Below, one piece after another: positions 5,194 to 24,158 of a stretch of DNA of 32,173 nucleotides. How positions within the stretch are numbered: position 1 is the stretch's first letter; each line of letters begins with the position of its first letter. The notes beneath the pieces are model-generated. The model was not told where the DNA came from and made no database searches. It saw nothing but the letters and a program-made list of their open reading frames with translations. The position numbers and the translations under genes were made by a program. The DNA comes from a virus: IMG/VR virus record IMGVR_UViG_3300031565_000214, positions 1-32,173 of that record, one strand, 5' to 3'.

Positions 5194-8007
5194 TTATAGG
5201 TTTAGATCGTCGCCGGTATTGCGTAGTCGAATTGGGATGAAGATAAACTCTACTGCCTTTGTAGGCTGTATAGCAATATCTACCCAAAGTTCGTTGCGAT
5301 CAATACGTGCTGGCGTGTTATTGCTCTCGTCTACAACAACCAGGAAGTCAGTTACGCCGCGTAGTGTAACAAGTTCTGCTAGGAACGAGTCAAACGCTTC
5401 TTTAACTGCATCTCGTGTTACTGTATCGTTAGGCTCAAACAAGAATGGCTGTGCCAACAGGTCTGATTGGTAACGAATGTAGTTAACAAGACGTGCAACA
5501 TTTACACGGTCTAGCGAACCTGCTACTGGGTTACGTGTCTTCTGTCCCCAAATAACAATGCCTCGTCCAGGAAGTGTTGCAATAGCGTTAACGTTGTTTG
5601 TGTATAGCGTGTCGCGCTGACCTGCGTTCAGCGCAACTGTTACAAACTCGTCCTCGCTATCCAAGTAACCAACTGCGGATGAATTGCTAATTGTGCCACG
5701 TGAGAAGCCTGCTGGTGCAAACCAAGGATAAGCAACCTGGTCGTTAAACGCCATTTGACGTAGTACCATGTGGCTTGCAGGAACAACTACTTCGCTGCCG
5801 TCTACGTTAGTAGATAGGCCTGATGGGTAGTAAACACCCAAGTAAGGACTTGTTGTTACTAGTCCGTCGTCGCCGTTGCCTGCTGCATTGTTAGCATTAG
5901 ATGACCATGCTTGCAAACTTGTCGTTGCATTAGATAGTCCGAATGGTGCGTCGCCAATTACAAACGCCTGTTCCTTACGATCAGTGTTTAGAGTTAGCAT
6001 TTCGTCCATTAGCTCAGTGAAGCCAGGTGCAGCAATTAGGTTGTAGAAGATTGTGTCATTGCGTACATCTTCATTTGCAGTGATTGTTGCTGCAATTGCG
6101 TTAATAACAACTTTCTTCTGTGCCGCTGCGCCAGTAATTAAGCTACCGTCTAGGTTGTTGCCGCTTGCGCTGACCCAACGATCAACGGAAACTAGTCCCG
6201 ATACATCTGTTGTAGCTGCGTCTTGCGTCCATACCTTAACGTTGCGTCCACTGTAGCGTGTATTCCATAGGAGTGTGCCTCCTGGATACAGTGCTGGATC
6301 TGGAGCATCGCTGTCTAGATCTGGATCACTGCCGCCGCCGTTGTTAACGCCGTTAGTTGCCGCTGATGAGTTAGTTGGTCGTGCATCGGCAAAGATAATA
6401 CCTAGTGGTGATGTTTGGTCAGTGTTGTCAACTAGTACCCATGCACCTGCTGTACGACGGTAAATTACCGGATACGATGTGCCTGAATCTGTTTCAACCC
6501 AAATGTCACCGTTCGATGGTGAAGTCGGAGCGTCTGCTTGCGTGGAAACTGTACCTGCAACTTCAATCCAACCTGTGCCAGCTGCATCTTTAACAAGTAG
6601 GTCTACGTTAAAGTTTGCGTCATACCAGTATGTACCGTATGCTGTATCGCCTGCAGGTGTTGTTAGTGATGCTGCGTATGTTACACCAGATACTGAGTCT
6701 AGGTCACTGAAGTTTGAATATGTGCCACCGGAACCGTAACCCATTTCTGCTAGTGGAGTATTAACGTTATTAGCAAGTGTTACGTCTGCTCCGTTAGTAG
6801 CAGTAATTACTAGTACTTCTGCGCCGCCCGTAAGTGTTGTGCTGCTTGCGACAATATTGCCGTTTGTAATAACGTCTGCATCAGTGTTAATTGTTGTTGC
6901 TAGTTCGTCCACTGTAGTTTCAGCACCCGTAAATGCAACCGTAACTGCCGCGCCTGCACCGAGCGTAATGTCGATCGAGTCTAGTGCTGCAATGTTAACA
7001 AATGTTGGTGTTGCTGTACCTGTTGCTGATGTTGTTGTTGCACCACTGTGGGACTGGAATACAACGTCTAGTACATCTTCGCCCGACACACTGTTGTCTG
7101 TCGAATCAACAAAACCTACTACTGTGCCTGCTGTTACTGCTGATGATGTAACACCCGACGATGCGTAATACGCCGTTGGATTCTGGAAGATTGGCGTTGT
7201 ACCTAAGTCAACAAACTGCGCTAGTGTTGCATCATAACGCTTAAGGTTGAGACTTAAACCACTGTTTGGTGTAGTTGTCTTCAACCAAAGGTCGCCAGCA
7301 GTACCGGTAGGTACTGTATAGTGCGGAGACTGGTATATCTCATTAGCTAGTGCGCCGCCGTCTAGTTTAGCCCAGGTGCCGCCCGATGTAAAGTTATAGT
7401 ATTCTAGGTGAACACCCGTCGTTGCATCTACGCTTGCTGGATAAAATACTGCAATTATGTCGCCTACTTGGCGTCCGCTTACATTGCTAGATGTATCAAA
7501 CGCTGTAGCACTAGGGTTAACTATTACGTCTACGTCTACTGCTGTCCAATTACTGGATGCATCCGATATAAACAAACCAGGCGTAAACTCGTTTAGATCA
7601 ACCCAATAAGTGCTGTCTACCGCATCGCCTGTTGGTGCAATTGATAGTGGATCTAGTTCTGCTAGATCAATGTCTGCGCGAATTACATACGCGCGGTTAG
7701 CAAGTCCTAGGTAGGAATATGCAGCAAGCAAACCGTATTCGTTTAGTGGGTAGCCGTTCTGTGCTGATCCACCGACTTCGTTAAAGTCCGGGTTACCAAA
7801 TGTCTGTAGTAGCTCACGCTGACTAGAGATTAGGTAAAGATTGTTTGCGTTGGCTGCTGTCGTACCTACTGCTGTCGCTGTACCGTCTGGTGTTGTCTTA
7901 TCCTGCTTAGTAGCAACAAAGACAAGCGGTACTGTACCTGGTCCTGCGCCAGTCGAGAAACTCTCGTCCGTCACGCTCACCTGCACGCCTGGGGATAATA
8001 GGGCCAT
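5194..8007 (-). CDS. gp18: Tail sheath protein, gp18-like, with large insertions
   Basis: Contractile sheath subunit. The ATG at 8007 (MALLSPGVQVSVTD) is chosen over an upstream in-frame extension because it has AAGGAG just before it and begins as sheath proteins do. The 937 residues exceed T4 gp18 (659). The N-terminal ~120 residues and the C-terminal ~250 (GIVIWGQKT, VNVARLVNYIRYQSDLLAQP, then DVAIQPTKAVEFIFIPI-like ending) are the conserved sheath core. Between them, about residues 130-600, repeated Trp-rich modules (near 133, 239, 458, 500 and 578) flank a segment at 335-415 resembling flagellin/hook IN motifs. These are probably surface-exposed domains. The gene ends at a strong terminator. 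Confidence 0.92.
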   Translation of the reverse strand: MALLSPGVQVSVTDESFSTGAGPGTVPLVFVATKQDKTTPDGTATAVGTTAANANNLYLISSQRELLQTFGNPDFNEVGGSAQNGYPLNEYGLLAAYSYLGLANRAYVIRADIDLAELDPLSIAPTGDAVDSTYWVDLNEFTPGLFISDASSNWTAVDVDVIVNPSATAFDTSSNVSGRQVGDIIAVFYPASVDATTGVHLEYYNFTSGGTWAKLDGGALANEIYQSPHYTVPTGTAGDLWLKTTTPNSGLSLNLKRYDATLAQFVDLGTTPIFQNPTAYYASSGVTSSAVTAGTVVGFVDSTDNSVSGEDVLDVVFQSHSGATTTSATGTATPTFVNIAALDSIDITLGAGAAVTVAFTGAETTVDELATTINTDADVITNGNIVASSTTLTGGAEVLVITATNGADVTLANNVNTPLAEMGYGSGGTYSNFSDLDSVSGVTYAASLTTPAGDTAYGTYWYDANFNVDLLVKDAAGTGWIEVAGTVSTQADAPTSPSNGDIWVETDSGTSYPVIYRRTAGAWVLVDNTDQTSPLGIIFADARPTNSSAATNGVNNGGGSDPDLDSDAPDPALYPGGTLLWNTRYSGRNVKVWTQDAATTDVSGLVSVDRWVSASGNNLDGSLITGAAAQKKVVINAIAATITANEDVRNDTIFYNLIAAPGFTELMDEMLTLNTDRKEQAFVIGDAPFGLSNATTSLQAWSSNANNAAGNGDDGLVTTSPYLGVYYPSGLSTNVDGSEVVVPASHMVLRQMAFNDQVAYPWFAPAGFSRGTISNSSAVGYLDSEDEFVTVALNAGQRDTLYTNNVNAIATLPGRGIVIWGQKTRNPVAGSLDRVNVARLVNYIRYQSDLLAQPFLFEPNDTVTRDAVKEAFDSFLAELVTLRGVTDFLVVVDESNNTPARIDRNELWVDIAIQPTKAVEFIFIPIRLRNTGDDLNL

Positions 8008-8021
8008 TCTTTTTCTCCTTA

Positions 8022-8031
8022 GATAAATAAT
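8022..8031 (+). promoter_or_regulatory. Plus-strand late-type promoter motif (GATAAATAAT)
   Basis: Plus-strand GATAAATAAT lies in the divergent gap between the sheath gene and the only plus-strand gene. It may drive that gene together with the next motif at 8035. Confidence 0.4.
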
Positions 8032-8034
8032 ATG

Positions 8035-8044
8035 TATAAATATG
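8035..8044 (+). promoter_or_regulatory. Plus-strand late-type promoter motif (TATAAATATG)
   Basis: It contains the full T4 late octamer TATAAATA on the plus strand, 42 bases before the ATG at 8086. That spacing supports 8086 as the start of the plus-strand gene. Confidence 0.5.
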
Positions 8045-8055
8045 TCCAATTGGAC
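8044..8055 (-). promoter_or_regulatory. Small hairpin in the sheath mRNA leader
   Basis: Perfect palindrome GTCC-AATT-GGAC, eight bases downstream of the sheath late promoter octamer. Confidence 0.35.
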
Positions 8056-8061
8056 TATAGT

Positions 8062-8071
8062 GATATTTATC
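8062..8071 (-). promoter_or_regulatory. T4-type late promoter motif (GATAAATATC) for gp18
   Basis: Minus-strand GATAAATATC gives a leader of about 55 bases to the sheath ATG at 8007. It lies between the plus-strand promoter motifs and the plus-strand start, so the two promoters face each other across about 20-40 bases. Confidence 0.65.
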
Positions 8072-8085
8072 ACATACAGGAATTT

Positions 8086-8487
8086 ATGAGCGGTTTAGAT
8101 AAAATAACATCTTTTAATGATATCGAGAACCTTGTTACAACCGATCCTGTGGAAGTCAGCCCGCATCATAGCACAAAATCACGCACAAAAGAGCATAACG
8201 AGAAGATTAGCGAGTCTTGCAAAAAGTTTTACAAGACAGACGAAGGTAAGGAAGTGCTTGAGAAACGTTCAAAGCGTATGCGTGACTTTTACGACACACG
8301 ACACGGACAAGCAATACGTAAAAAGTTAAGTGCTAAATGCGGAAGGCCTAAACCAAAGGCAATCGCAAAGGCTGTTAGGAAGCATATTGCTAATGAATAC
8401 AGCAATGGAAAAAAGATAAGCGAATTAGCAAAACACTATGAAGTGTCTCGCGCATCTATCTATCGTTATATAAAGGAATTTTGTTAG
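8086..8487 (+). CDS. HTH DNA-binding protein resembling the DNA-binding part of a homing endonuclease
   Basis: The only convincing plus-strand gene. A start at 8086 (MSGLDKITSF, 133 residues; GGA a few bases before) is preferred because TATAAATA sits 42 bases upstream; an ATG at 8032 would add 18 residues. Residues about 30-60 (TKEHNEKISESCKKFYKTDEG) resemble the NUMOD3-type DNA-binding repeat of phage homing endonucleases. The C-terminus (KISELAKHYEVSRASIYRYI) is a helix-turn-helix of the resolvase/Hin type. No GIY-YIG, HNH or LAGLIDADG catalytic motif is visible, so it may be a degraded endonuclease or a regulator. It ends overlapping the convergent gene by four bases. Confidence 0.75.
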   Translation: MSGLDKITSFNDIENLVTTDPVEVSPHHSTKSRTKEHNEKISESCKKFYKTDEGKEVLEKRSKRMRDFYDTRHGQAIRKKLSAKCGRPKPKAIAKAVRKHIANEYSNGKKISELAKHYEVSRASIYRYIKEFC

Positions 8488-9293
8488 TAGATATCGTCTG
8501 CTATATCAGCAATAAGGCCGCGGACGCCGCCGATGACATCCTTCTCAAGTCCTTTGTCTTCGATCTTTGAGCGTAATGTATTTTCTAAGTCATCACCGAA
8601 CTTATCTAATCGTTGCTTAATACGGGCAATATCTTCGTCTGATATAGTGCTTGTGTCTGTTGTACTTGCTTCGGTATCGTCTTTTTCGATTTTTGTTGCA
8701 AGTGCTTTAGGCTTCTCTTTGTGAACAGTGCCGATAATCTGCATAATTAGTTTGTTCACTTCTTTAGGGTTGAACGTAACTTCTTGCTCTTCGCCAGCTT
8801 CTGTTAGCATTGCTGCTAGGCGCGCTTCTAGCGATTCAGTATTGATGTTGACCTGTCCGTACCCCGGTACATTTTGCGAAGGACCTTTCTTTTTGTTCTT
8901 AGCTAACTGCGCATTAGCTTGATCCGTATAGTCTGTACCTGCTTTTGGTTCATCTTCCGATGGTTGCTCAACTTGCTTAGGTGCCTTCTTTTCTGCTGCG
9001 GCTTTGATAACTCGCTCAGCAGTCTTAGCATAGCCCTCTTCTTGAAAGAAATCCATAAGATTTGCAACGGTAAGTGCTTTAGGATTGACACCCGACGCCT
9101 TTGCTTTACCGAGCCACGTATTAAATGCACCTGCAACCTCATTAGCTGCCTGTTGCGTAATTTCCTCACCGGCGGCTCGGTCACGAGCAGCCTTATTGAA
9201 CGGCGTGTGCTTCTTTAGTTTGGTGCCCATGCGAGCAAGAATGCCTGCAGGTTGGGCTTCGGCTAGGTTTTCGTCGATATCAGTAAGTTTCAT
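8484..9293 (-). CDS. Probable virion protein with capsid-targeting-like N-terminus (269 aa)
   Basis: Not recognised by family. It begins MKLTDIDENLAEAQPAG, fitting the short tag with an L-x-E cleavage site (LAE at 10-12) shared with other genes here. Residues 35-95 and 150-269 appear helical and charged; residues 100-145 look like a disordered Lys/Glu/Pro linker. A late promoter octamer ends only five bases before the ATG at 9293, so the transcript would be nearly leaderless if that promoter is used. It lies just upstream of the sheath gene, which favours a head or tail assembly role. The stop overlaps the end of the plus-strand gene by four bases. Confidence 0.7.
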   Translation of the reverse strand: MKLTDIDENLAEAQPAGILARMGTKLKKHTPFNKAARDRAAGEEITQQAANEVAGAFNTWLGKAKASGVNPKALTVANLMDFFQEEGYAKTAERVIKAAAEKKAPKQVEQPSEDEPKAGTDYTDQANAQLAKNKKKGPSQNVPGYGQVNINTESLEARLAAMLTEAGEEQEVTFNPKEVNKLIMQIIGTVHKEKPKALATKIEKDDTEASTTDTSTISDEDIARIKQRLDKFGDDLENTLRSKIEDKGLEKDVIGGVRGLIADIADDIY

Positions 9294-9313: not shown

Positions 9314-9940
9314 CTAAAATTGATACTTGTTATTCAGTAGTCCTACCATGCTGTATAGCTGTTCTAACGTGCCATCGTTGTGAATTAGCTCGTCGGGAGT
9401 TTCATTTGCCCATGCCCACTCACTTGCATGTATATTATAGTGGTCGTTCATTGCAACAATGCCGGGTTCGTGTCCTGCTGCTGCCTCTTTTGCTATAGGC
9501 CACCACTCAGGTTCTTCGCCGCGGTCCACTTGTATAATGTGTCCACCTAGACTGCGTATGATTTGCACTTCATTAGGAAAACGTGCATCGCTGATCACTA
9601 CATTCTCGCCTTCTTTATAGCGGCGCATTGCGCTGAGGACCCAAATGTCTGTGTGGAAATTATTGCGAAATACATCCGTACCGATCAACTGAAGTGCTAG
9701 GCGAGGAGTGAAGTTAGGCATGCCAAGCTGTTCTGCCCACCACTCATCTACTTCTTCGCGGAATGCACGACTCTCGACAGATCCGCCAGATAGCAATTCC
9801 CTGTCCCAACCAAATATTTGTGCTGTAATGTCTTTTAGTGTAGATGCAAAGCTGTCTTGCCTGAAGCCGTATGTCTCAACGAGTTCTCTCGCAACGGTAT
9901 CTTTACCAGAATTGATGCGTCCGAGTATTCCTATAAGCAT
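9314..9940 (-). CDS. gp1: Deoxynucleoside monophosphate kinase, T4 gp1-like
   Basis: Phosphorylates dNMPs to dNDPs using ATP, feeding phage DNA synthesis. The P-loop is clear near the N-terminus (GRINSGKDT, residues 7-15). Downstream, LQLIGTDVFRNNFHTDIWV (about 95-113) corresponds to the T4 gp1 segment LMQALGTDLIVNNFDRMYWV, and VVISDARFPNEVQIIRSLGG to its Walker-B-like region (PDTRQDHEMDAARAMG). The length is 208 residues versus 241 in T4. A near-perfect sigma70 promoter lies about 30 bases upstream, inside the end of the preceding gene, so this is an early-type gene within otherwise late surroundings. Confidence 0.82.
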   Translation of the reverse strand: MLIGILGRINSGKDTVARELVETYGFRQDSFASTLKDITAQIFGWDRELLSGGSVESRAFREEVDEWWAEQLGMPNFTPRLALQLIGTDVFRNNFHTDIWVLSAMRRYKEGENVVISDARFPNEVQIIRSLGGHIIQVDRGEEPEWWPIAKEAAAGHEPGIVAMNDHYNIHASEWAWANETPDELIHNDGTLEQLYSMVGLLNNKYQF

Positions 9941-9970: not shown

Positions 9971-9999
9971 ATTATAGCAGGAATTTATGAAATTGTCAA
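9971..9999 (-). promoter_or_regulatory. Sigma70 promoter (TTGACA-17-TATAAT) for dNMP kinase
   Basis: Minus strand: TTGACA at 9999-9994, 17 bases, TATAAT at 9976-9971. Both boxes are perfect. The -35 box overlaps the last codons of the upstream nucleotidyltransferase gene. Confidence 0.88.
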
Positions 10000-11024
10000 G
10001 CGTAAACGAGTTCTTTAATTTGCGACATTGCGTCGTCAATTTGTTTGCGGATCTGTTCCACCTTTTCTTTCGCTTCAGGTGTTTGTGCTTTGTCGAATTT
10101 CTTAGCTGTCTTTGCTGCTTCTGTTTTAGCAGTCATATCTGCCATAAAGCGTTCAATGTATTCGTTATAGGAATTTATACCTTTTAGATTATACTTGCCA
10201 AACATGTCGTTTAGCTCAAAGCTTCTTCCTAATCCTCGCACGACAGAAATAAGTCGCGACATTTTAAGATTCTTTTTGTCAATGCCCGGATTCTGTTTTA
10301 GCTCTTTAGCAATCTGCATAGCGCCAGATGCGGTATATGGATATACACGATCAAACAATTCACGCAAAATGTCTATGCCGAAATTTTCTTGGTCCAATGA
10401 TAGCGTATCTACAGAATCTACCTTGCGACTGCGAGCAAAATTAACAGGCTCGCCGCCTTTTATCTTCATCTGTGCGCCGCTACTCTGTATGCTCATCTCT
10501 AATACGTTGCCTAGGCTGCTGTAAATGCTGCCGTATACAAGGCCTTTAATGCCACGCTCTGGCGTTGAGCGATAACGTGCCCAATCTGCCTCGGGTTCCG
10601 ATGCCCATAGCATATCAACTTGCACGAAGACGTCTTTGTTTAGTTTGAAAATCGGATGCCCTGCGAGGCTCTTGCCTTCGTAGTGAATATATGCAGGCTT
10701 AGTAGTTGCTACAAACTCGTCCATATGCTTGTTATACATGTTTGCGAGCTGGCTCGTAGTCGTGCCTTCCTGTGCAGGGGCAATCATTTGTAGATCGATA
10801 TCGCCATACACCTTGTCTTCGGTGTCTACTTTATAATACGCAGACGATCCAGTAGGGTGGCCCATCTTGACAGGATTGACACCTTGCGTTTTTAGGTATT
10901 TGTTGAAGTCGTTTGTGAATTGCTTAACGTGCTCAAGCACCGCCTTAACGGTTGATGGCGTAATCTTAGTGCTTTGCGTAGCTGTAGATTGCCAGCCGCC
11001 TTCATACAATTCACAGGCGCGCAT
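9996..11024 (-). CDS. Pol-beta-fold nucleotidyltransferase-like protein with capsid-targeting-like tag
   Basis: Residues 59-61 (GSS) and 74-78 (GDIDL), then D137 in VFVQVDMLW, form the pattern G-S...DxD...D of the polymerase-beta nucleotidyltransferase superfamily, which transfers NMP to a protein, RNA or small molecule using two metals held by the three Asp. The target is unknown. The N-terminus MRACELYE fits the short [LI]-x-E tag found on neighbouring genes and on T4 Alt, suggesting packaging in the head. Residues 200-342 are helical and Lys-rich at the end. The ATG at 11024 overlaps the upstream stop as TAATG. It is 342 residues long, with no obvious missing key residue. Confidence 0.68.
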   Translation of the reverse strand: MRACELYEGGWQSTATQSTKITPSTVKAVLEHVKQFTNDFNKYLKTQGVNPVKMGHPTGSSAYYKVDTEDKVYGDIDLQMIAPAQEGTTTSQLANMYNKHMDEFVATTKPAYIHYEGKSLAGHPIFKLNKDVFVQVDMLWASEPEADWARYRSTPERGIKGLVYGSIYSSLGNVLEMSIQSSGAQMKIKGGEPVNFARSRKVDSVDTLSLDQENFGIDILRELFDRVYPYTASGAMQIAKELKQNPGIDKKNLKMSRLISVVRGLGRSFELNDMFGKYNLKGINSYNEYIERFMADMTAKTEAAKTAKKFDKAQTPEAKEKVEQIRKQIDDAMSQIKELVYA

Positions 11025-11485
11025 TACTCGTCTCCGAAATCAGGAACCTTAAATGTGCCTGTCACATCAACAAGGCCTTGCTCACACCGTTCGCAACCAT
11101 CACCGAAACACTTAGGACATACTTCGTACTCGCCTGTTGGAATGTCATCGTCGTGCGAGAAAGTTTCTTCCTCAACTGGTGATAAGTGATATGGCGGGAA
11201 TTTTAGATCACGTGCAATTTCGTCTGCTTCTTCGGGAGATATTTCGCCTTGATCATGCATGAAGTCTTCGAGGTCGTCTGCGCTATAGCTATCTTGCGCG
11301 TCTCCCATCAGCTCATCAATGCGACGTAAAATATTGAGACGTCGTGCTTCTGCGTTTCGGTCATCCATAACAAACGCAATCATGTCATCCATCCGATCTT
11401 CGCCAGATTGTAACAGGGTTACAAACTCTGCTTCTCTTGCTACTGCTGGATGTCCTACGACATCGCCCATTTCACTAATCTTCAT
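11024..11485 (-). CDS. Acidic protein with C-terminal zinc-binding Cys4 motif
   Basis: The 153-residue product is acidic and helical for its first ~115 residues. Near the C-terminus it carries CPKCFGDGCERCEQG, a CxxC-x5-CxxC arrangement like half of a DnaJ zinc domain, likely binding one zinc. The N-terminus MKISEMGDVVG could be a short variant of the targeting tag (ISE at 3-5), though this is the weakest member of the set. Its start overlaps the end of the upstream small basic gene by eleven bases, and its stop overlaps the nucleotidyltransferase start, so the two are probably made together and may act together. Function unknown. Confidence 0.7.
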   Translation of the reverse strand: MKISEMGDVVGHPAVAREAEFVTLLQSGEDRMDDMIAFVMDDRNAEARRLNILRRIDELMGDAQDSYSADDLEDFMHDQGEISPEEADEIARDLKFPPYHLSPVEEETFSHDDDIPTGEYEVCPKCFGDGCERCEQGLVDVTGTFKVPDFGDE

Positions 11486-11737: not shown

Positions 11738-11766
11738 ATTATATAATCGTGTTACTCAAATGTCAA
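11738..11766 (-). promoter_or_regulatory. Sigma70 promoter (TTGACA-17-TATAAT)
   Basis: Minus strand: TTGACA at 11766-11761, 17 bases, TATAAT at 11743-11738. It precedes the 79-residue basic protein and the nucleotidyltransferase operon. The -35 box overlaps the last codons of the upstream gene. Confidence 0.88.
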
Positions 11767-12206
11767 GCATAATCTACTGGCTTGAAATTTGGATGCATAT
11801 TAGTAATTGTCTCTTTATCAAAATCGTCCATCTTAGACATGGAACGAATATTGGAACCGTGGTAGTCTAAGACATATCCTGATTTACCTTGCTTGCCGTA
11901 TACGTTCTTATCTTCAAAATTTCCACTATCGTAATCAGTGTCAAGCTTGTCAGCAATCTTTTGTGCTTGCGCAAACGTAGGCACGTTGATAGCTACAATG
12001 CGTCCGCCGTCGCCCTTAGGCTTATAGCGTCCTTGTCCATCTTCTGGATCGCCGTCACCATACCATTCCCATGATTGAGCGTTCCACTCTACGTAGTAGG
12101 GCGCGTCTTTCATATCTTGCTCTTTTTCGCTGCGCTCGCTATTGTAGTCTGCTAGTTCGGAGTCGTCGCGACGTAACGCAACTTCTGTAATCTCAAATAA
12201 TCTCAT
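11763..12206 (-). CDS. Hypothetical protein with Alt-like N-terminal tag (147 aa)
   Basis: It begins MRLFEITE, very close to the T4 Alt start MELITE, which the prohead protease removes after ITE. After a charged ~30-residue stretch, residues 35-115 have an alternating Tyr/Trp/Asp pattern (YYVEWNAQSWEWYGDGD, GGRIVAINVPTFAQAQKIAD) suggestive of a small alpha/beta domain. Function unknown. The ATG overlaps the upstream stop as ATGA. Together with the gp13-like gene and two small proteins it forms one coupled operon behind a late promoter, consistent with incorporation into the virion. Confidence 0.7.
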   Translation of the reverse strand: MRLFEITEVALRRDDSELADYNSERSEKEQDMKDAPYYVEWNAQSWEWYGDGDPEDGQGRYKPKGDGGRIVAINVPTFAQAQKIADKLDTDYDSGNFEDKNVYGKQGKSGYVLDYHGSNIRSMSKMDDFDKETITNMHPNFKPVDYA

Positions 12207-12514
12207 GGTCGTGTTTTAACAACTCCTTCAAATTCGTCTTCACTCACATACCAAAATGGACGCGCATCACTCATGTCGTGTCCATTATTTTCTAGTAAGT
12301 TGAGTTGGTCTTCTGTTAGGTAATACATTTTACCAAAATCTTCTGAATGTATAGTTACATGGCTAAGCAGGCGTAACCCGTTTGTCATGTTGCTATCATC
12401 CCAGCCATCGTTTCTCATCATCCTTACAACAATAAGAATCAATAGTGAAATAAATCCTGTAATAAACAAGCCTAAGCCTAAAAGGACCAATCCCGAAATA
12501 GTTAGTGCTTCCAT
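12203..12514 (-). CDS. Small membrane protein (103 aa)
   Basis: One long hydrophobic segment spans about residues 5-30 (ISGLVLLGLGLFITGFISLL), followed by basic RMMRN, then a ~70-residue soluble domain, probably facing the cytoplasm by the positive-inside rule. No lipobox or known enzyme motif. It is coupled on both sides by TAATG and ATGA overlaps within the gp13 operon. It could be a membrane-associated assembly or lysis-timing factor, but nothing in the sequence decides this. Confidence 0.68.
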   Translation of the reverse strand: MEALTISGLVLLGLGLFITGFISLLILIVVRMMRNDGWDDSNMTNGLRLLSHVTIHSEDFGKMYYLTEDQLNLLENNGHDMSDARPFWYVSEDEFEGVVKTRP

Positions 12515-12795
12515 TACTTCTTCCTTTGATCTTTACTAAACATGCTCATTGCTTTATCGGTATCTTTCTCGCCGTTCGGCAATTCTAATACGTCGATAAA
12601 ATCATCTACAAGTTCTACGCCGTACATATCTCGAACCTTTTTACGTGCTGCCTCGGAATCAAAGCCGTCAATAGCACCCTTATCTGCTCCATCGAAAGCA
12701 GCCGAGGCTTGCTTTGCTGTACGCGCAATTGTAGCCTTATCATTACCGACTTTAGTGGCATTCTTTCGTTCTATAATGATATCTCTAATCTTCAT
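12514..12795 (-). CDS. Small protein with capsid-targeting-like tag (93 aa)
   Basis: It begins MKIRDIIIE, then a basic segment RKNATKVGNDKATIARTAK. The tag has the K2, the hydrophobic run and the I-x-E site shared with T4 internal proteins; cleavage after residue 9 would leave a small, Lys-rich protein of about 84 residues, typical of T4 internal proteins in size and charge. Start and stop are both coupled by TAATG overlaps inside the gp13 operon. Function unknown; an injected or scaffold-associated role is inference. Confidence 0.7.
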   Translation of the reverse strand: MKIRDIIIERKNATKVGNDKATIARTAKQASAAFDGADKGAIDGFDSEAARKKVRDMYGVELVDDFIDVLELPNGEKDTDKAMSMFSKDQRKK

Positions 12796-17572: not shown

Positions 17573-18493
17573 CTAGGCGCGCCAGTAGCCCTCAAGTCCC
17601 ATGCCGTGCGCGTTGATCGGGATGCCTTTCAGCTTCGGATAATTCTCGGACTCACGCATGAAGCCTTCGATCACAAAATACTCGTCGCTGATCGTGCCGT
17701 CCGTAAAGTAGTTGACGCTGTCAATATCAGTTTTGACCGTCTGCCAGAAGCATACCTCTTTTCCAGCGATGGCGTACACAGGAGCAGCATAGAACTCGCC
17801 AACTTGCTTGTGCGCTTGCTCCACTTGTTTTAGCAGCCCATCAAATGCTAGTGCATCTTCGATCAAATAGTCCTCGCGGCTGTCAGTGCAGATTCTGCGC
17901 ACCTGGACATATTGTACAGATGGGAATTTCCCTAACCACTCAAGCATCTCAGGGATTTCTTTGATGTTGTATTTGCTTGCAACAATCGACACGCGACAGT
18001 GATCGACTTCGGTCAAAATTTTCTCCCAATCTGGCATCGGTGATTTGCCCATCATCAATTGCTGCGTATCGAAATCTCGCGTATGAATCGAGAAGCCGGG
18101 GTTAGCAATACACTTGTCAATCGCTTCCATCTTCTTATGTGCAAGGAAGCCGTTTGTGCGCAGGCCCATTCTAAATCCTTTGCCTTGCACGTAGTCGAGT
18201 ATCTCAGGCAAGTAGCGATACATTAGTGCATCTGTGTTCTGCCCTGTGATATAGACATTCGGAATATTGCGTTCCTTACAAACATCGAGAAACTCGTCAA
18301 AGTTTTTCCAAGTGCTAAAGTGATCTCGCATTTGATTTTGATTTGAGAAAACGGGATCAATGTCTTTGCCGAGACAGAAATAACAATCTGCATTGCATTT
18401 GCCAAGGACGTTTATATTGGCGAAGCTTGGTGCAGAACGATTCCAATTCTTTTCAAACTCCGGTCGTAGAAGTTTATTTCGCCATTTACTCAT
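17573..18493 (-). CDS. Radical SAM enzyme
   Basis: The motif CNADCYFC (C33, C37, C40) is the CxxxCxxC signature that holds the 4Fe-4S cluster and S-adenosylmethionine in radical SAM enzymes. ITGQNTDAL stands where the usual GGEP-type SAM-contact motif is expected. The protein is 306 residues: a TIM-barrel part followed by a C-terminal region with single Cys residues but no second full cluster motif. The substrate is unknown; a modification of nucleotide, peptide or DNA base is possible. The ATG at 18493 (MSKWRNKLL) overlaps the upstream stop as TAATG; an alternative TTG seven codons upstream is less likely. It is the last gene of the NAD-salvage operon. Confidence 0.85.
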   Translation of the reverse strand: MSKWRNKLLRPEFEKNWNRSAPSFANINVLGKCNADCYFCLGKDIDPVFSNQNQMRDHFSTWKNFDEFLDVCKERNIPNVYITGQNTDALMYRYLPEILDYVQGKGFRMGLRTNGFLAHKKMEAIDKCIANPGFSIHTRDFDTQQLMMGKSPMPDWEKILTEVDHCRVSIVASKYNIKEIPEMLEWLGKFPSVQYVQVRRICTDSREDYLIEDALAFDGLLKQVEQAHKQVGEFYAAPVYAIAGKEVCFWQTVKTDIDSVNYFTDGTISDEYFVIEGFMRESENYPKLKGIPINAHGMGLEGYWRA

Positions 18494-18723
18494 TAGTACA
18501 CCTTTTCCTTCCAAATCGTATACATCACATGCCGAAGGTCGCCGCTCGAATAATGATTGCTACTTTTCTTCCAAGTGATCTTCTCGCCGAAGTCCTTTTC
18601 GGCGAGTTGTTTTGCTGTCTTAAGATCGCTTGCAAGCATCTCCCAATTAGTCTCGGTACCTGCTCCCATGTGTCCGAGGAACCTAAGGTCTTCGCTTACT
18701 ACTCTGTAAACGTAGTTCTTCAT
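18493..18723 (-). CDS. Hypothetical protein (76 aa)
   Basis: Not recognised. A short mixed alpha/beta protein (NYVYRVVSEDLRFLGHMGAG, then helix DLKTAKQLAEKDFGEKITW, then a C-terminal strand). Both ends are coupled: its ATG overlaps the NadV stop and its stop overlaps the radical SAM start (TAATG). Conservation of this position between NadV and the radical SAM gene in related phages would suggest a shared pathway. Confidence 0.65.
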   Translation of the reverse strand: MKNYVYRVVSEDLRFLGHMGAGTETNWEMLASDLKTAKQLAEKDFGEKITWKKSSNHYSSGDLRHVMYTIWKEKVY

Positions 18724-20249
18724 TAGTACACCTCTACCTCGAGATCATCTAGCGTTCCTACGTTAGCTTCTGCTCTGCGAATACGTTCTGCTGGAAGTTT
18801 TGCGTTCTCGCGAACCTCTGCCAGCGTCATGTCGCGTACCAGCTTGCCGCTGTCGTATACTGTCTCCAGCATTGGTGTGAAGCCCTCTGTTTCGTACCGT
18901 GCAACTTCTTCGATGCGAACTGTCAGGAATTCGTTGTTTCTGCGCATGAGCTCCAAACGTCCTGCCATCGACTTCTTGAAGCTTGAGCGTACTGGCTTCC
19001 AGGTTGTTGCGTCGTATATGGTAGGATCCTTGTAAATGTCATGCCAGCCATCTGCATCATGCCTTGCACATGCCTTCATTGCAAATTTCAGTGTGTCTCT
19101 GTTGTTCTTCTGCAGAAGACCACCACCCATTCCAAATGCAATGTTGCTGATGCTGAAGTTCTCTTCTTCCAGCTTCGCTACAATCTTGCGAACGTCGTCG
19201 ATGTCGATGCCGTCGCCCTGTATTACGCGGACGTTAGCAAGCACCTTGCAACCTTTTCCGTTATACGTGAATCCGAAGATTCGCGACAGTCTGCGAACAA
19301 GCTCAACCGGTGTCTCGACTGGGTCGCCACTGTCTGGACGGATAACCCAGGTAGCGCCCGACTTGAGTAGACGATCCTTGAACTTCGGTGCAATGTTCTC
19401 AACAAAGTTCATGATGTCGTAGCTGTCTGCTACCGTTGCGAAAATCGCGCCAGGCTTAGCCACCTTGTCAAATACTTGATCGAGGAACTTTTCTTCGCCG
19501 TCGGGACCAAATGCCGTTGTCGTGCTATGCTCCGTTGCAAAGATGCTGTAGCCTGCCATCTTCTCGTGATAGCCGATGTTAGCTGCCATAATGCCTACAG
19601 TCGTGTCGCTACCGAGGAAGTTAACAAGATGTGCTGCGCCGTTGAACGCCGCGCTCTCCATGCTGCTAACACCGCGGGAGCCGAAGTCGTGTAGCTTGAA
19701 GCCGATTTCTGCATCTGCGTCGTCTGCTGTCCTTACAAGAGCATCATAAATGATTTTCTTGATGTGATAGGACGTTGTTGCTACAGTAGTAGGTGCCCAA
19801 ACGCGCATTATCAACGTTTCCATATAGGTCGTCAATGCAATGATGCGTTCGTCTGCTACAGCGGATTCGACCGTTGCGAGCAACTGCTTCGTAGGAAGAA
19901 CTGTGCCTTCGGGGATTGCGCGAATCTTGAGCGGCATGTAGCCGTCGTAGTCGTCAACCACTGCGCGAAGTGCGATTTCGAGTTCCTCAATTTCGACACC
20001 AAAAAAGTGTTCTTTCTGAAACGCGATAATGTTGTCAACTTGCTTGTGCGTTAGCTGGCGAAGCAAATGCTCCTTGATAACCAACTGCAAGCCGAACCAC
20101 TGTAGCTCTTCGTAGTCTCCGCCGCGGCTAAAAATGTGGCTCATTAGCCTGTCAGTGCCTTTCGGATACTGTGCAGGGTGTGAGAATTTGTAGCTGTCTG
20201 TGTCGCCAGCTGCTCCGTATGTATTTCTAATTTCTTGTATAATGCTCAT
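18723..20249 (-). CDS. nadV: Nicotinamide phosphoribosyltransferase (NadV/NAMPT)
   Basis: Makes NMN from nicotinamide and PRPP, the first step of the two-step NAD salvage. The 508 residues match full-length NAMPT. Active-site stretches are intact: KLHDFGSRGVSSMESA (H187, D188, R192), the catalytic His in ATEHSTTTAFG (H241, matching human H247), and VIRPDSGDP (R304, D306, D309). The ATG at 20249 follows AAGGAG, which sits in the loop of an inverted repeat that may control translation. It lies in the same operon as the NMN adenylyltransferase that completes the pathway. Such pairs occur in vibriophage KVP40. Confidence 0.95.
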   Translation of the reverse strand: MSIIQEIRNTYGAAGDTDSYKFSHPAQYPKGTDRLMSHIFSRGGDYEELQWFGLQLVIKEHLLRQLTHKQVDNIIAFQKEHFFGVEIEELEIALRAVVDDYDGYMPLKIRAIPEGTVLPTKQLLATVESAVADERIIALTTYMETLIMRVWAPTTVATTSYHIKKIIYDALVRTADDADAEIGFKLHDFGSRGVSSMESAAFNGAAHLVNFLGSDTTVGIMAANIGYHEKMAGYSIFATEHSTTTAFGPDGEEKFLDQVFDKVAKPGAIFATVADSYDIMNFVENIAPKFKDRLLKSGATWVIRPDSGDPVETPVELVRRLSRIFGFTYNGKGCKVLANVRVIQGDGIDIDDVRKIVAKLEEENFSISNIAFGMGGGLLQKNNRDTLKFAMKACARHDADGWHDIYKDPTIYDATTWKPVRSSFKKSMAGRLELMRRNNEFLTVRIEEVARYETEGFTPMLETVYDSGKLVRDMTLAEVRENAKLPAERIRRAEANVGTLDDLEVEVY

Positions 20250-20765: not shown

Positions 20766-21836
20766 TTAGTTCTCCAGCTTCGCAACCATTGTTTGAATGA
20801 TTAGTTTATGGTCTTCGAAAAGTACGCTACCCATTGCATCAACTACGTCCAACGGAAACCAACGTGCTTCTTCTGCGTCGTCTGCGCCTTTCACCTTAGG
20901 CAGGCTGGGTTGGTCTTCGAGTGCGAACAGATATGCGTTTGTAATTGTGCGACCACGCAAGCTTCTGTTAGGTTCGTCAAAAACCTGAAAGTGTTTCATG
21001 CTGCCTCTAAGAACGCGAGACGGTACTTTCAGTTTTGTTTCTTCGCGTAGCTCGCGAATGACACCATCTTCCAAACGTTCTTGCTGATTTACAAATCCGC
21101 CCGGAAGTGCCCACAGCCCTTTGCCAGGTTGTGTGCGTCTTTTTACAAGCAGGATGTGCCCGCTCTGCACGACGACTGCATCTGTCGTTACGAATGTGAC
21201 TGCGTATGGTGCCTGCTCCCACATTTTGTGATAGCGACGAACGTATTCCTCTTCGTCAACAAGTATCTTGTATTCTTTCATCTTGTGAAACTTGTCGAGG
21301 AACGCAAGCACTTCTGCAGGCACGTCTGGCACAATCTGCTCAAACTCGCCGTCGAAGTAATGTTCGCGTATGATAGAGGCGTCAAGGATGCGTTCGCCGT
21401 TTGCGCGGACGCGATGACCGATTTCGATGAATTCCCAGGTAGGGAACTGGTTGAGGTAAAAGCTGGTGTGGTCCTTGTCGTGACCGAGGATAGCAATTTT
21501 GGCGTCGAAGATTTCGTAGCCTTGCTCGATTAGATGTTTGTGTGCTGCTGTCTGTACGTTCTTCAGCCACTCTGTGTTTGGGTAGTAATCTTCCACTCCA
21601 ATAACACCGACGCGATCTTCAGGAAAGATATCCTTGATCATGCGTTTGCGCTCATCTGCTGTGAACGGGTTTTTAGGAGTGCGGGGTTGGTTAGCTGAAC
21701 CGGCGATGACCAAAACGTGGTCTGCGATTTCTAATGCTGTTTTGATGTTGCGAACGTGCCCGTTGTGTAAGGGCTGCATTCTGCCGATGAACACGGCTAA
21801 GTCGTATTTTCTGTCTTTCATCTCGATATCATCCAT
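20766..21836 (-). CDS. Bifunctional NMN adenylyltransferase / Nudix hydrolase (NadM-Nudix)
   Basis: Two domains in one chain. Residues ~10-180 are a nucleotidylyltransferase: GRMQPLHNGH (HxGH at 24-27) joins NMN and ATP to NAD. Residues ~210-356 are a Nudix domain with the box G247-x5-E253-x7-RELREE (261-266), which in related proteins cleaves ADP-ribose or similar compounds. With NadV this restores NAD from nicotinamide. KVP40 and other T4-like phages carry the same fusion. The start is the ATG at 21836 or the one at 21821 (MKDRKYDLAVF). A sigma70-type promoter lies 80 bases upstream. First gene of the operon that ends with the radical SAM gene. Confidence 0.93.
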   Translation of the reverse strand: MDDIEMKDRKYDLAVFIGRMQPLHNGHVRNIKTALEIADHVLVIAGSANQPRTPKNPFTADERKRMIKDIFPEDRVGVIGVEDYYPNTEWLKNVQTAAHKHLIEQGYEIFDAKIAILGHDKDHTSFYLNQFPTWEFIEIGHRVRANGERILDASIIREHYFDGEFEQIVPDVPAEVLAFLDKFHKMKEYKILVDEEEYVRRYHKMWEQAPYAVTFVTTDAVVVQSGHILLVKRRTQPGKGLWALPGGFVNQQERLEDGVIRELREETKLKVPSRVLRGSMKHFQVFDEPNRSLRGRTITNAYLFALEDQPSLPKVKGADDAEEARWFPLDVVDAMGSVLFEDHKLIIQTMVAKLEN

Positions 21837-21981: not shown

Positions 21982-23001
21982 TTACTTATTATGGACAGCA
22001 AAGCCATTGGCAAAATAAGTCTGATTACCGCTTACAGATAGATTATAAATAGGCATATCATTTTGATACCCGCCATTACCCCTTATGCTTTTTATTTCTA
22101 CAGGTTCCCCATTCTTAGTAAGCACAAAATCGCCAACCTCTAATTTATGTATATTATCTTTAGAAAATTCCGAGCCCGTGTGTTCACGCAGAGTTTTTGT
22201 TGGGGAGATAGACTTCCAGCCGTCCGGTGTCATAAACGGATGTTCAGAAGTCACATAAAATGGACTACCGTTAATGGAGTAAAGTTTTTTATTACCGATA
22301 GGTCGTATCGGGTTTGATCGAACAACATTTGTGGTGCTGTCTAACGCCAAAACAACATCACCAGCAACAATATCTTCAATTGCTTTTTCTGAACCATTTG
22401 CCATTGTAACCATCGTTCCGGCAATAAAGCAACCGCCACCGCCGCCACCACCGCCACCCTTATAAGTCAATGTCGCCGAACCAGCGTAGTAACCTGTTGC
22501 AATAGTTATGCCGGGGGCCAATCCTGTTCCGTCGTCTCGTGCAATTTCTATCATAAGGGTACCTGCCGACTGTGCGCTAAACTTACCTTCAGCTTGCCAT
22601 TGCCAATCCGGTGCAGGCGTTGTACCCGGCGCCAAACTGTGCCACGTATTTAGAGCTTGTCCTACATCAGGAGCATCGCCGCTGTCGAGGGTTGCACGTA
22701 TCCAATATATACCTGTATATTCTTTATCACTAAGCCACGTCGTATCTTGTTGGTAATACGAATAAGCTCCTGCACCAAAATCAGAATCAAATCTCGTAAT
22801 CGATCCCTGTTCTGTAAAATAGCCGCCGCCGCTAACTGCATCAGCTGCTCCGAATATCCAAGAGCACACCGCGTAACCGGCTATCACGCCATCAGTGTTG
22901 TCAATGCTATATATTGTGTTAGGTGATTCTGATGTACCCGATAGTGATGGGACCGATACGCCTGCTGCGGCTGTATGTGCGTCAAAGTGCATAAATGACA
23001 T
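21982..23001 (-). CDS. Protein ending in an intein-like Hint domain
   Basis: Residues 1-180 look like a beta-rich, Gly/Thr/Ser-rich secreted or structural domain. Nine consecutive Gly (182-190) lead to Cys191, where a Hint (Hedgehog/intein) domain starts: CFIAGTMVTMANGSEKAIED, block B T251-S-E-H254, and a C-terminal H337-N338 followed by a single Lys. All self-cleavage residues of inteins are present, but the +1 residue is Lys, not Cys/Ser/Thr, and there is essentially no C-extein, so this resembles a bacterial-intein-like domain that cleaves rather than splices. GGAGAG precedes the ATG. It directly follows the serine protease gene, three bases apart. Confidence 0.85.
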   Translation of the reverse strand: MSFMHFDAHTAAAGVSVPSLSGTSESPNTIYSIDNTDGVIAGYAVCSWIFGAADAVSGGGYFTEQGSITRFDSDFGAGAYSYYQQDTTWLSDKEYTGIYWIRATLDSGDAPDVGQALNTWHSLAPGTTPAPDWQWQAEGKFSAQSAGTLMIEIARDDGTGLAPGITIATGYYAGSATLTYKGGGGGGGGGCFIAGTMVTMANGSEKAIEDIVAGDVVLALDSTTNVVRSNPIRPIGNKKLYSINGSPFYVTSEHPFMTPDGWKSISPTKTLREHTGSEFSKDNIHKLEVGDFVLTKNGEPVEIKSIRGNGGYQNDMPIYNLSVSGNQTYFANGFAVHNK

Positions 23002-23003
23002 TC

Positions 23004-24158
23004 TTACTCTCCGATAAACTTTGTGATGTTTAGATCTTGCATTACTGCATCAATTGGATTTGCAAAAGTAACAACGTCGTTACCTGCAAATAGCAAGCCT
23101 ACTGCATTGTCGTTGTTGTCCATAACAAGTGAGCCACTGTCACCACCTGCTGAGAACGGCGAACCATCTACGCCTGTCTCGATCCATAGCTGATCTTCAA
23201 AGCGGCAAATGCCGCCGTCATAACCTACGTCAACAATAACGTCTGTCTGTAAAATTGTGCCTGTTGTATGGCCTGTTGTGCGACCCAGCTTGTGTACGCT
23301 TGTGCCTACACCAGCAAGCTCATTCACGCCCTTTACACCTGTCGAAAATGTCAAGTAATTTGTTGCATATTCGATGCCGTCGTCAATCGTTGCTACAGCG
23401 CCGTCAACACGGTTTAGAATAATTTGCGCAATTGCGTATTCCTGCTTCGCTACCGTTGTCGATGGACGAACTGCTCTTAGGCGTGTGCTGCGTCCTGTTA
23501 GCTCTGCTACCTTGTTTAGCACCTTTGCAAAAATGTTAGCTACCTTACACTTGCTATCTTCCTCAGGCTCGGGTGTTGGGTCAGGTTCCGGTGTTGGGTC
23601 AGGCTCTGGTGTTGGATCTGGGTCAGGTGCTGGGCCTGGTGGAGGTGTCGGTTCGCTTTGGTTGGTGAAGGTAAGAGGCACGTAATTGTACAGAGTACCT
23701 ACGCGATCCGAAAGATCGCCGCCATCATAATCCCCTGGCTGAATAATGGCATCGCCTAACTGCGCATCGTTTTCGTTAGCAAATACGTGGTTGTTGCTTA
23801 GTATCATAACGTCGCCATCAACTTCTACTATAGCACCGATCGTACCTGCTGTGATTGCGTAATGCCCTACGCTAATGCCCGGCATGACAGGACGTTGCTT
23901 GTCGCGCCATGCTGGAAACTTACGTGGGCGGTCGCCGATCTCAACAATGTCAGTCGGAATGCCGTCAATACTTTGCGGGATCATTTCTTCTTGCGTTAGC
24001 TGCGCTACTGGTTTCTTTGCTTTGATTGAGCAGATAAGTGCTTTTCTACCTGTGCGCTTGCCGTGGGATATTTTCTCTCCAATACCTACAGCATATACGC
24101 CGGGTTTGCTCAGTAGTTCCTCTGCATGTTTACGCAGAGTATCGCGATGTTTGGTCAT
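23004..24158 (-). CDS. Chymotrypsin-fold serine protease with Pro-rich insert
   Basis: Triad candidates are H124 in ILSNNHVFA, an Asp in the VDGAVATIDD segment (252-260) and S341 in GGDSGSLV, the trypsin-type GDSG motif. Between His and Asp lies a ~30-residue insert of repeated PEPDPT units (170-199). The first ~90 residues may be a propeptide, with VGIGEKISHGKRTGRK resembling the N-terminus of related bacterial proteases. No signal peptide is visible, so the protein is either virion-borne or released at lysis. A clear late promoter precedes it, and the Hint protein follows in the same transcript. Substrate unknown; processing of a virion or host surface protein is a possibility. Confidence 0.82.
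   Translation of the reverse strand: MTKHRDTLRKHAEELLSKPGVYAVGIGEKISHGKRTGRKALICSIKAKKPVAQLTQEEMIPQSIDGIPTDIVEIGDRPRKFPAWRDKQRPVMPGISVGHYAITAGTIGAIVEVDGDVMILSNNHVFANENDAQLGDAIIQPGDYDGGDLSDRVGTLYNYVPLTFTNQSEPTPPPGPAPDPDPTPEPDPTPEPDPTPEPEEDSKCKVANIFAKVLNKVAELTGRSTRLRAVRPSTTVAKQEYAIAQIILNRVDGAVATIDDGIEYATNYLTFSTGVKGVNELAGVGTSVHKLGRTTGHTTGTILQTDVIVDVGYDGGICRFEDQLWIETGVDGSPFSAGGDSGSLVMDNNDNAVGLLFAGNDVVTFANPIDAVMQDLNITKFIGE

Follow-up and report, generated by a model that had tools for sequence, protein, structure and literature searches.

The window analysed here is a 32,173-nucleotide stretch of viral DNA (IMG/VR record IMGVR_UViG_3300031565_000214, positions 1 to 32,173). On its minus strand, an ATG-started open reading frame (ORF) read from 11024 to 9996 encodes a 342-amino-acid protein, P0001, which begins with MRACELYEGGWQST and belongs to a family of nucleotidyltransferases that we call NT1. 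The catalytic core follows a short N-terminal peptide like those of T4 head proteins, suggesting an enzyme that may be packaged with the phage DNA. The features of the gene are listed below; throughout, a slash within a sequence marks an expected or known cut or the corresponding junction.

9996..11024, minus strand: NT1 nucleotidyltransferase gene (protein P0001), 342 amino acids
11001..11024, minus strand: N-terminal tag MRACELYE, with a predicted prohead-protease cut after E8 and before GGW
10842..10850, minus strand: G59-S60-S61, first catalytic motif, within M54-GHPTGSS-61
10794..10802, minus strand: D75-I76-D77, metal-binding Asp pair, within YG-D75-I-D77-L; invariant in 56 of 56 aligned sequences
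10614..10616, minus strand: D137, third carboxylate, within FVQV-D137-M; invariant in 56 of 56

Neither P0001 nor its close relatives gave a convincing match in Pfam, PHROGs, NCBIfam or the sequences of the Protein Data Bank (PDB). The family was reached through same-species copies in IMG/VR and a relative with 51% identity, which led to a VQVDMxW pattern and then to a profile. This NT1 profile matched 178 IMG/VR stretches, and from these 80 loci were retained (neighbour counts use 79); the NT1 alignment has 56 rows, with members 39–66% identical to P0001. NT1 is common in uncultured phages, yet none of 50,697 isolate phage records and none of the family libraries searched contains it, and no relative turned up in two scans of 84,980 cellular genomes. 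Judged by sequence, NT1 is an undescribed nucleotidyltransferase family, so far only from uncultured viruses.

A more distant family, NT2, whose members start with [IL]hMEGGNVFK, was first met as a nearby gene in L005 and has homologues in Agrobacterium phage Atu_ph07, Sinorhizobium phage Phosso and Pseudomonas phage PA5oct. The NT1 and NT2 profiles are homologous (hhalign E = 4.9e-7, probability 92; the comparison was negative with three sequences and positive once more were used), and the NT2 profile recovers the window ORF (E = 2.5e-5). One NT2 member matches AbiEii (E = 0.0033), as would befit a toxin-type nucleotidyltransferase that alters the 3′ ends of host tRNAs. Given that this match is confined to 1 of 26 NT2 members and to none of the 56 NT1 members at E 0.1, and that no antitoxin-like partner was seen, we consider such a toxin very improbable.

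A preliminary description of this DNA had picked out the motifs GSS, GDIDL and VQVDM, and the family confirms them beyond chance: G59, S60, Y73-G74-D75-I76-D77, V134-Q135 and D137 are invariant in all 56 rows, and position 61 varies between S, T and G. The Pol-beta superfamily pattern, hG[GS]...[DE]h[DE]h and a third carboxylate, is present, with a slightly longer spacing from GS to the first Asp than is usual. The same description had set the Pol-beta fold beforehand as its test, and the predicted structure agrees. An AlphaFold2 model built on 56 sequences reached a predicted local distance difference test (pLDDT) score of 93.2 and a predicted template modelling score of 0.89, superseding an earlier three-sequence run that was poor (pLDDT 51). 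It falls below pLDDT 50 only at residues 1–10, the tag, which is disordered. Foldseek against the PDB ranked Leishmania Pol beta best (E = 6.7e-4, probability 1.00), with Pol mu at 7.4e-4, and VIA-align superposed the model on Pol beta (Z = 10.2, 181 residues, model 13–255, root-mean-square deviation (rmsd) 3.9) and on PolX of African swine fever virus (ASFV; Z = 9.7, 168 residues, rmsd 3.3). Because the AlphaFold2 model and the matches from both programs agree, membership of NT1 in the Pol-beta superfamily is established at the level of predicted structure; the fold matches, whose listed rows are dominated by many Pol beta entries, do not prove a family X enzyme. The expected clustering of D75, D77 and D137 stands as far as these residues are invariant and on the expected strands; the strand positions (76–82 and 132–142) and the range of the alignment suggest that they face each other.

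With the family X polymerases (Pol beta, mu, lambda and ASFV PolX), NT1 shares a palm-type core with GS, D-x-D and a third Asp, and a fold likeness of Z about 10 over 168–182 residues. Unlike them, it matches no Pfam family X palm or thumb model in any of the 56 members at E 0.1, has no 8-kDa domain in the model and carries an extra C-terminal helical part (256–342) as well as the head tag. Escherichia coli CdnC was fifth in the Foldseek ranking (E = 1.6e-3), which would suit a synthase of nucleotide signals like the CD-NTases, or a decoy of a defence of that type, but its superposition is poor (TM 0.25, rmsd 14) and no effector or sensor gene was recognized among the recurrent neighbours listed. 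We give no weight either way to the presence of CD-NTases in the Foldseek list and their absence from the VIA-align rows listed, and we regard a signalling role as highly improbable.

The tag ending in LYE is likewise a property of the family (MRACELYE/GGW in P0001). Glu directly precedes GGW in 55 of the 56 rows, and two positions earlier the residue is L, I or V in every row; among 49 distinct NT1 N-termini, the Glu is present in 48 and L, I or V in all 49. In T4, the capsid targeting sequence (CTS) and cleavage after Glu by gp21 are established (PMC9958956; PMC5694885). Compared directly, the T4 counterparts are MKTYQEFIAE/A in IPII and IPIII and MELITE in Alt, and NT1 tags such as MKSYEFLIE/G and MKSWEFLTE/G are nearly identical to the IPII and IPIII peptide. 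NT1 has an N-terminal peptide ending in [IL]xE at about residue 8–10, as expected of T4-type CTS cargo. The likeness to IPII, IPIII and Alt extends to T4-type protease genes in related contigs; the difference is that the cargo, if NT1 is packaged as the tag suggests, would be a nucleotidyltransferase rather than an inhibitor or an ADP-ribosyltransferase.

The junction also survives behind other domains, as VWE/GGW after a GNAT-like domain in L105 (Pfam GNAT 4e-4, below the cut-off) and LEE/GGW after another domain in L110, and it is kept after an insert in L031 and L066 (LEE/GGW in L031). The precursors in L105 (5665–6996) and L110 (5458–7008) read as tag, extra domain, [VL]xE/GGW and NT1, with prohead-protease-like sites between the domains.

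Tags of this kind are not restricted to nucleotidyltransferases. In the window, three unrelated proteins carry one or a similar N-terminus:

11763..12206, minus strand: unrelated protein tagged MRLFEITE/V
12514..12795, minus strand: unrelated protein tagged MKIRDIIIE/R
8484..9293, minus strand: unrelated protein whose N-terminus, MKLTDIDENLAE/A, is similar

We counted tags in families that have no relation to NT1, NT2 or the ligase-like proteins described below, comparing MK or MR starts with internal MK or MR sites. A loose pattern occurs at 30 of 107 starts and 21 of 183 internal sites (P = 4e-4), and a strict one at 25 of 107 starts and none of 185 internal sites (P = 2e-12, an optimistic value because the strict pattern was written after the tags had been seen). 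Each of the four tested contigs longer than 200 kb (G006, G007, G008 and G013) has a gene for an S77 (T4-type) prohead protease, as does G015. Next to three of these genes, [LIV]xE/[GAS] sites number 9–11 in the scaffold and also occur within the first 50 residues of the capsid protein; because scaffold and capsid carry such sites, [LIV]xE is supported as a protease motif in these phages. In G013, an NT2 gene starting MRWREIITE/GGN is two genes away from the capsid gene. Family pattern, unrelated tagged families and likeness to IPII and IPIII together support the earlier proposal of a T4-like head-targeting and protease tag.

A nucleic-acid enzyme that works unpackaged in the infected cell, its N-terminal peptide being merely part of the domain, would account for the distant homologues in Atu_ph07, Phosso and PA5oct, which begin untagged at M[GS]G.AF, and for the negative tag test in PA5oct. 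It fits poorly with a peptide that is disordered in the model, recurs on unrelated families, resembles those of T4 IPII and IPIII and persists as a junction in fusions, and we think it quite unlikely. Further small, unrelated tagged proteins occur in L014 (1513–1962 and 5389–5877), L004 (3477–4022) and L033 (9675–10265), with the tags MRLTEILNE, MKITEILNE, MRITDIINE and MRLHELTE; by sequence they are candidate head cargo. The tag could allow head cargo to be catalogued by sequence alone.

The genes around NT1 recur. An NT2-like gene lies beside NT1 at 41 of the 79 loci and a DUF6267 gene downstream of it at 31, with both at 26 and either at 50, typically on the same strand and overlapping by 4 bp. 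DUF6267 is matched by all 19 aligned copies of a ligase-like protein, and these copies carry KxDG, GDL, EG[YFM]V and KLV-type motifs, in our reading similar to the motifs of nucleotidyl-transferring ligases. In L021, L022, L027 and others, NT2 is fused to DUF6267. Because the neighbours are a second nucleotidyltransferase and a KxDG ligase-like protein, the partners of NT1 point to nucleic-acid end processing and sealing. Fusions of other kinds include a single chain in L025 (4362–6728) that joins a HIGH-type nucleotidylyltransferase, NT2 and a KxDG domain with [LIV]xEGG sites between them, and a tagged precursor in L101 and L102 (6001–7785) that combines NT1 with a GH19 hydrolase (3.3e-13), that is, a nucleotidyltransferase with a peptidoglycan-type hydrolase.

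The preliminary description had instead envisaged, by analogy with T4 Alt, an injected enzyme that takes over the host by transferring nucleoside monophosphate (NMP) to proteins or intact tRNAs of the host. Such an enzyme would share the tag and fold evidence, and the packaging step, with an end-processing enzyme. Protein modification has been proposed for Pol-beta nucleotidyltransferases delivered by mobile elements (PMC5512222), and the NT2 homologue of Atu_ph07 has tagged neighbours (gp59–62, M[RK]W[HD]QL.E) that by eye look ADP-ribosyltransferase-like. Against this stand the recurrent neighbours and fusions, which, as a second nucleotidyltransferase and a ligase-like protein, better fit nucleic-acid ends, and the closest solved folds, which are gap-filling polymerases. 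We therefore favour an end-processing enzyme over a host-modifying one, which we regard as unlikely. The Atu_ph07 neighbours (L008, 7606–11783, gp059–gp063) are tandem paralogues with N-termini M[RK]W[HD]QL.E or MRLFQLLE and, by eye, the YRG, S.FCT and conserved E of ADP-ribosyltransferases, making them possible Alt-like head cargo; a Pfam search with gp062 found nothing.

We propose that NT1 is a head-packaged nucleic-acid end-processing enzyme that in many phages forms a set with a ligase-like enzyme, a reading to which we give an even chance. The NT1 gene would yield, as a late precursor, a nucleotidyltransferase of the Pol-beta superfamily in which the catalytic residues are intact and residues 1–8 would serve as a capsid targeting sequence of the T4 type. 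During head maturation the prohead protease would cut after E8, leaving GGW as the new N-terminus, and the enzyme would be kept in the head and enter the cell along with the DNA. There it may extend damaged or gapped nucleic acid by adding NMP to its 3′ ends, and the ends may then be sealed by the KxDG ligase-like partner, which in many relatives would be DUF6267. RNA and DNA are both possible substrates: the enzyme could act on RNA ends, for example those of cleaved tRNA, or on the incoming DNA, at its ends and gaps. ASFV, which packages repair enzymes, offers a precedent for DNA gap repair alongside the family X fold.

For RNA repair the precedent is RlaP (T4 nrdC.11), an RNA-ligase-associated enzyme and likewise a Pol-beta nucleotidyltransferase linked to ligase-type partners (PMC7824862). 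The corresponding linkage here would be that to the genes for DUF6267, ligase-like by motif, found at 31 of 79 NT1 loci and not in the window. NT1 differs in having DUF6267 as its partner and in its tag, which nrdC.11 lacks, and membership in RlaP was rejected by sequence (no RlaP Pfam match; hhalign to nrdC.11 E = 0.067, probability 0.8).

Several observations weigh against the proposed role. What marks DUF6267 as a ligase is only its motif and a sub-threshold match of a related protein, Atu_ph07 gp066, to RNA_ligase (E = 0.002, below the cut-off). The gp066 gene lies beside the NT2 of that phage, and this match is the sole direct link to known ligases; a ligase profile search against the PDB returned nothing. 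Neither the window nor a 29-kb same-species contig contains a DUF6267 gene, a second nucleotidyltransferase gene or an S77 gene, and the portal–capsid region is in neither. In PA5oct, whose NT2 homologue carries no tag, the tag is not linked to detection by mass spectrometry (MS; 6 of 85 MS-positive versus 7 of 145 MS-negative proteins, P = 0.33), and soluble enzymes, ribonucleotide reductase among them, are on the MS list.

That untagged homologue, gp253, is annotated as detected by electrospray ionization tandem MS (ESI-MS/MS); because the list holds soluble enzymes, this is a weak sign of packaging. For Atu_ph07, 29 MS-identified virion proteins are given for CDS 31–76, the region of the homologue gp065, as a figure for the cluster as a whole (PMC6102473). 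The cytidylyltransferase T4-GC190 was detected in virions of cyanophage S-SM1 (PMC3037559), and in P-HM1 the gene for this cytidylyltransferase overlaps a DUF6267 gene.

More tentatively, and with the balance of probability somewhat against it, large T4-like phages may carry an end-repair kit in the head, consisting of two Pol-beta-type nucleotidyltransferases and the DUF6267 ligase-like enzyme, all with the same cleavable tag, which would mend cleaved host tRNA or the entering genome before phage gene expression. T4 mends tRNA cut by host defence only once its repair genes are expressed. If the proposal is true, a kit delivered with the DNA would act earlier than T4 repair and would change the view of how phages overcome early defences such as anticodon nucleases and DNA-end nucleases. 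A survey of injected multidomain proteins places Pol-beta nucleotidyltransferases only in conjugative elements (PMC5512222), and a phage-head version would be new in that respect. Some NT1 and NT2 relatives are multidomain, like phage polyvalent proteins (GNAT-like domain with nucleotidyltransferase, nucleotidyltransferase with GH19 hydrolase, nucleotidyltransferase with ligase-like domain), but these fusions are in phages, and what separates their domains is prohead-protease-like sites, not a fused metallopeptidase. P0001 itself is a single nucleotidyltransferase and not a polyvalent protein, fusions being found only in relatives such as L101, L105 and L110.

The immediate surroundings of the gene are as follows:

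11024..11485, minus strand: ORF P0002, 153 amino acids, upstream of the nucleotidyltransferase, with a CPKCFGDGCERC motif and a TAATG overlap
9314..9940, minus strand: deoxynucleoside monophosphate kinase, downstream neighbour (Pfam DNMK 3.6e-15)
5194..8073, minus strand: tail sheath protein (Pfam Phage_sheath_1C 5.8e-13)

Because of the tail sheath gene, we place the nucleotidyltransferase gene, by its sequence context, in the late structural block of a T4-like phage; a same-species contig (L013) encodes a T4-type terminase. P0002 had been put forward as a coupled zinc-motif partner. The coupling is there, the P0002 stop and the nucleotidyltransferase start sharing one base (TAATG), and so is the motif, but homologues were found only beside the 66% relatives L057 and L058 and not at the other loci compared; in L062, a 58% relative, an NT2 gene follows the nucleotidyltransferase instead. 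Kept by only two relatives, P0002 was set aside as a functional partner and is better described as a lineage-specific neighbour.

Elsewhere in the window, a nicotinamide adenine dinucleotide (NAD) salvage pair (18723–20249 / 20766–21836) comprises NAMPT (Pfam NAPRTase 4.8e-42, NAMPT_N 1.4e-16) and a fusion of cytidylyltransferase-like and NUDIX domains, together an NAD-rebuilding pathway. The protein encoded at 21982–23001 ends in a Hint/intein-type domain (Hom_end_hint 2.1e-8) preceded by a Gly-rich stretch, and that at 23004–24158 is a possible trypsin-like protease with a Pro/Glu/Asp repeat and weak Nal1_C and S64 matches. A radical SAM protein (1e-8) is encoded at 17573–18514.
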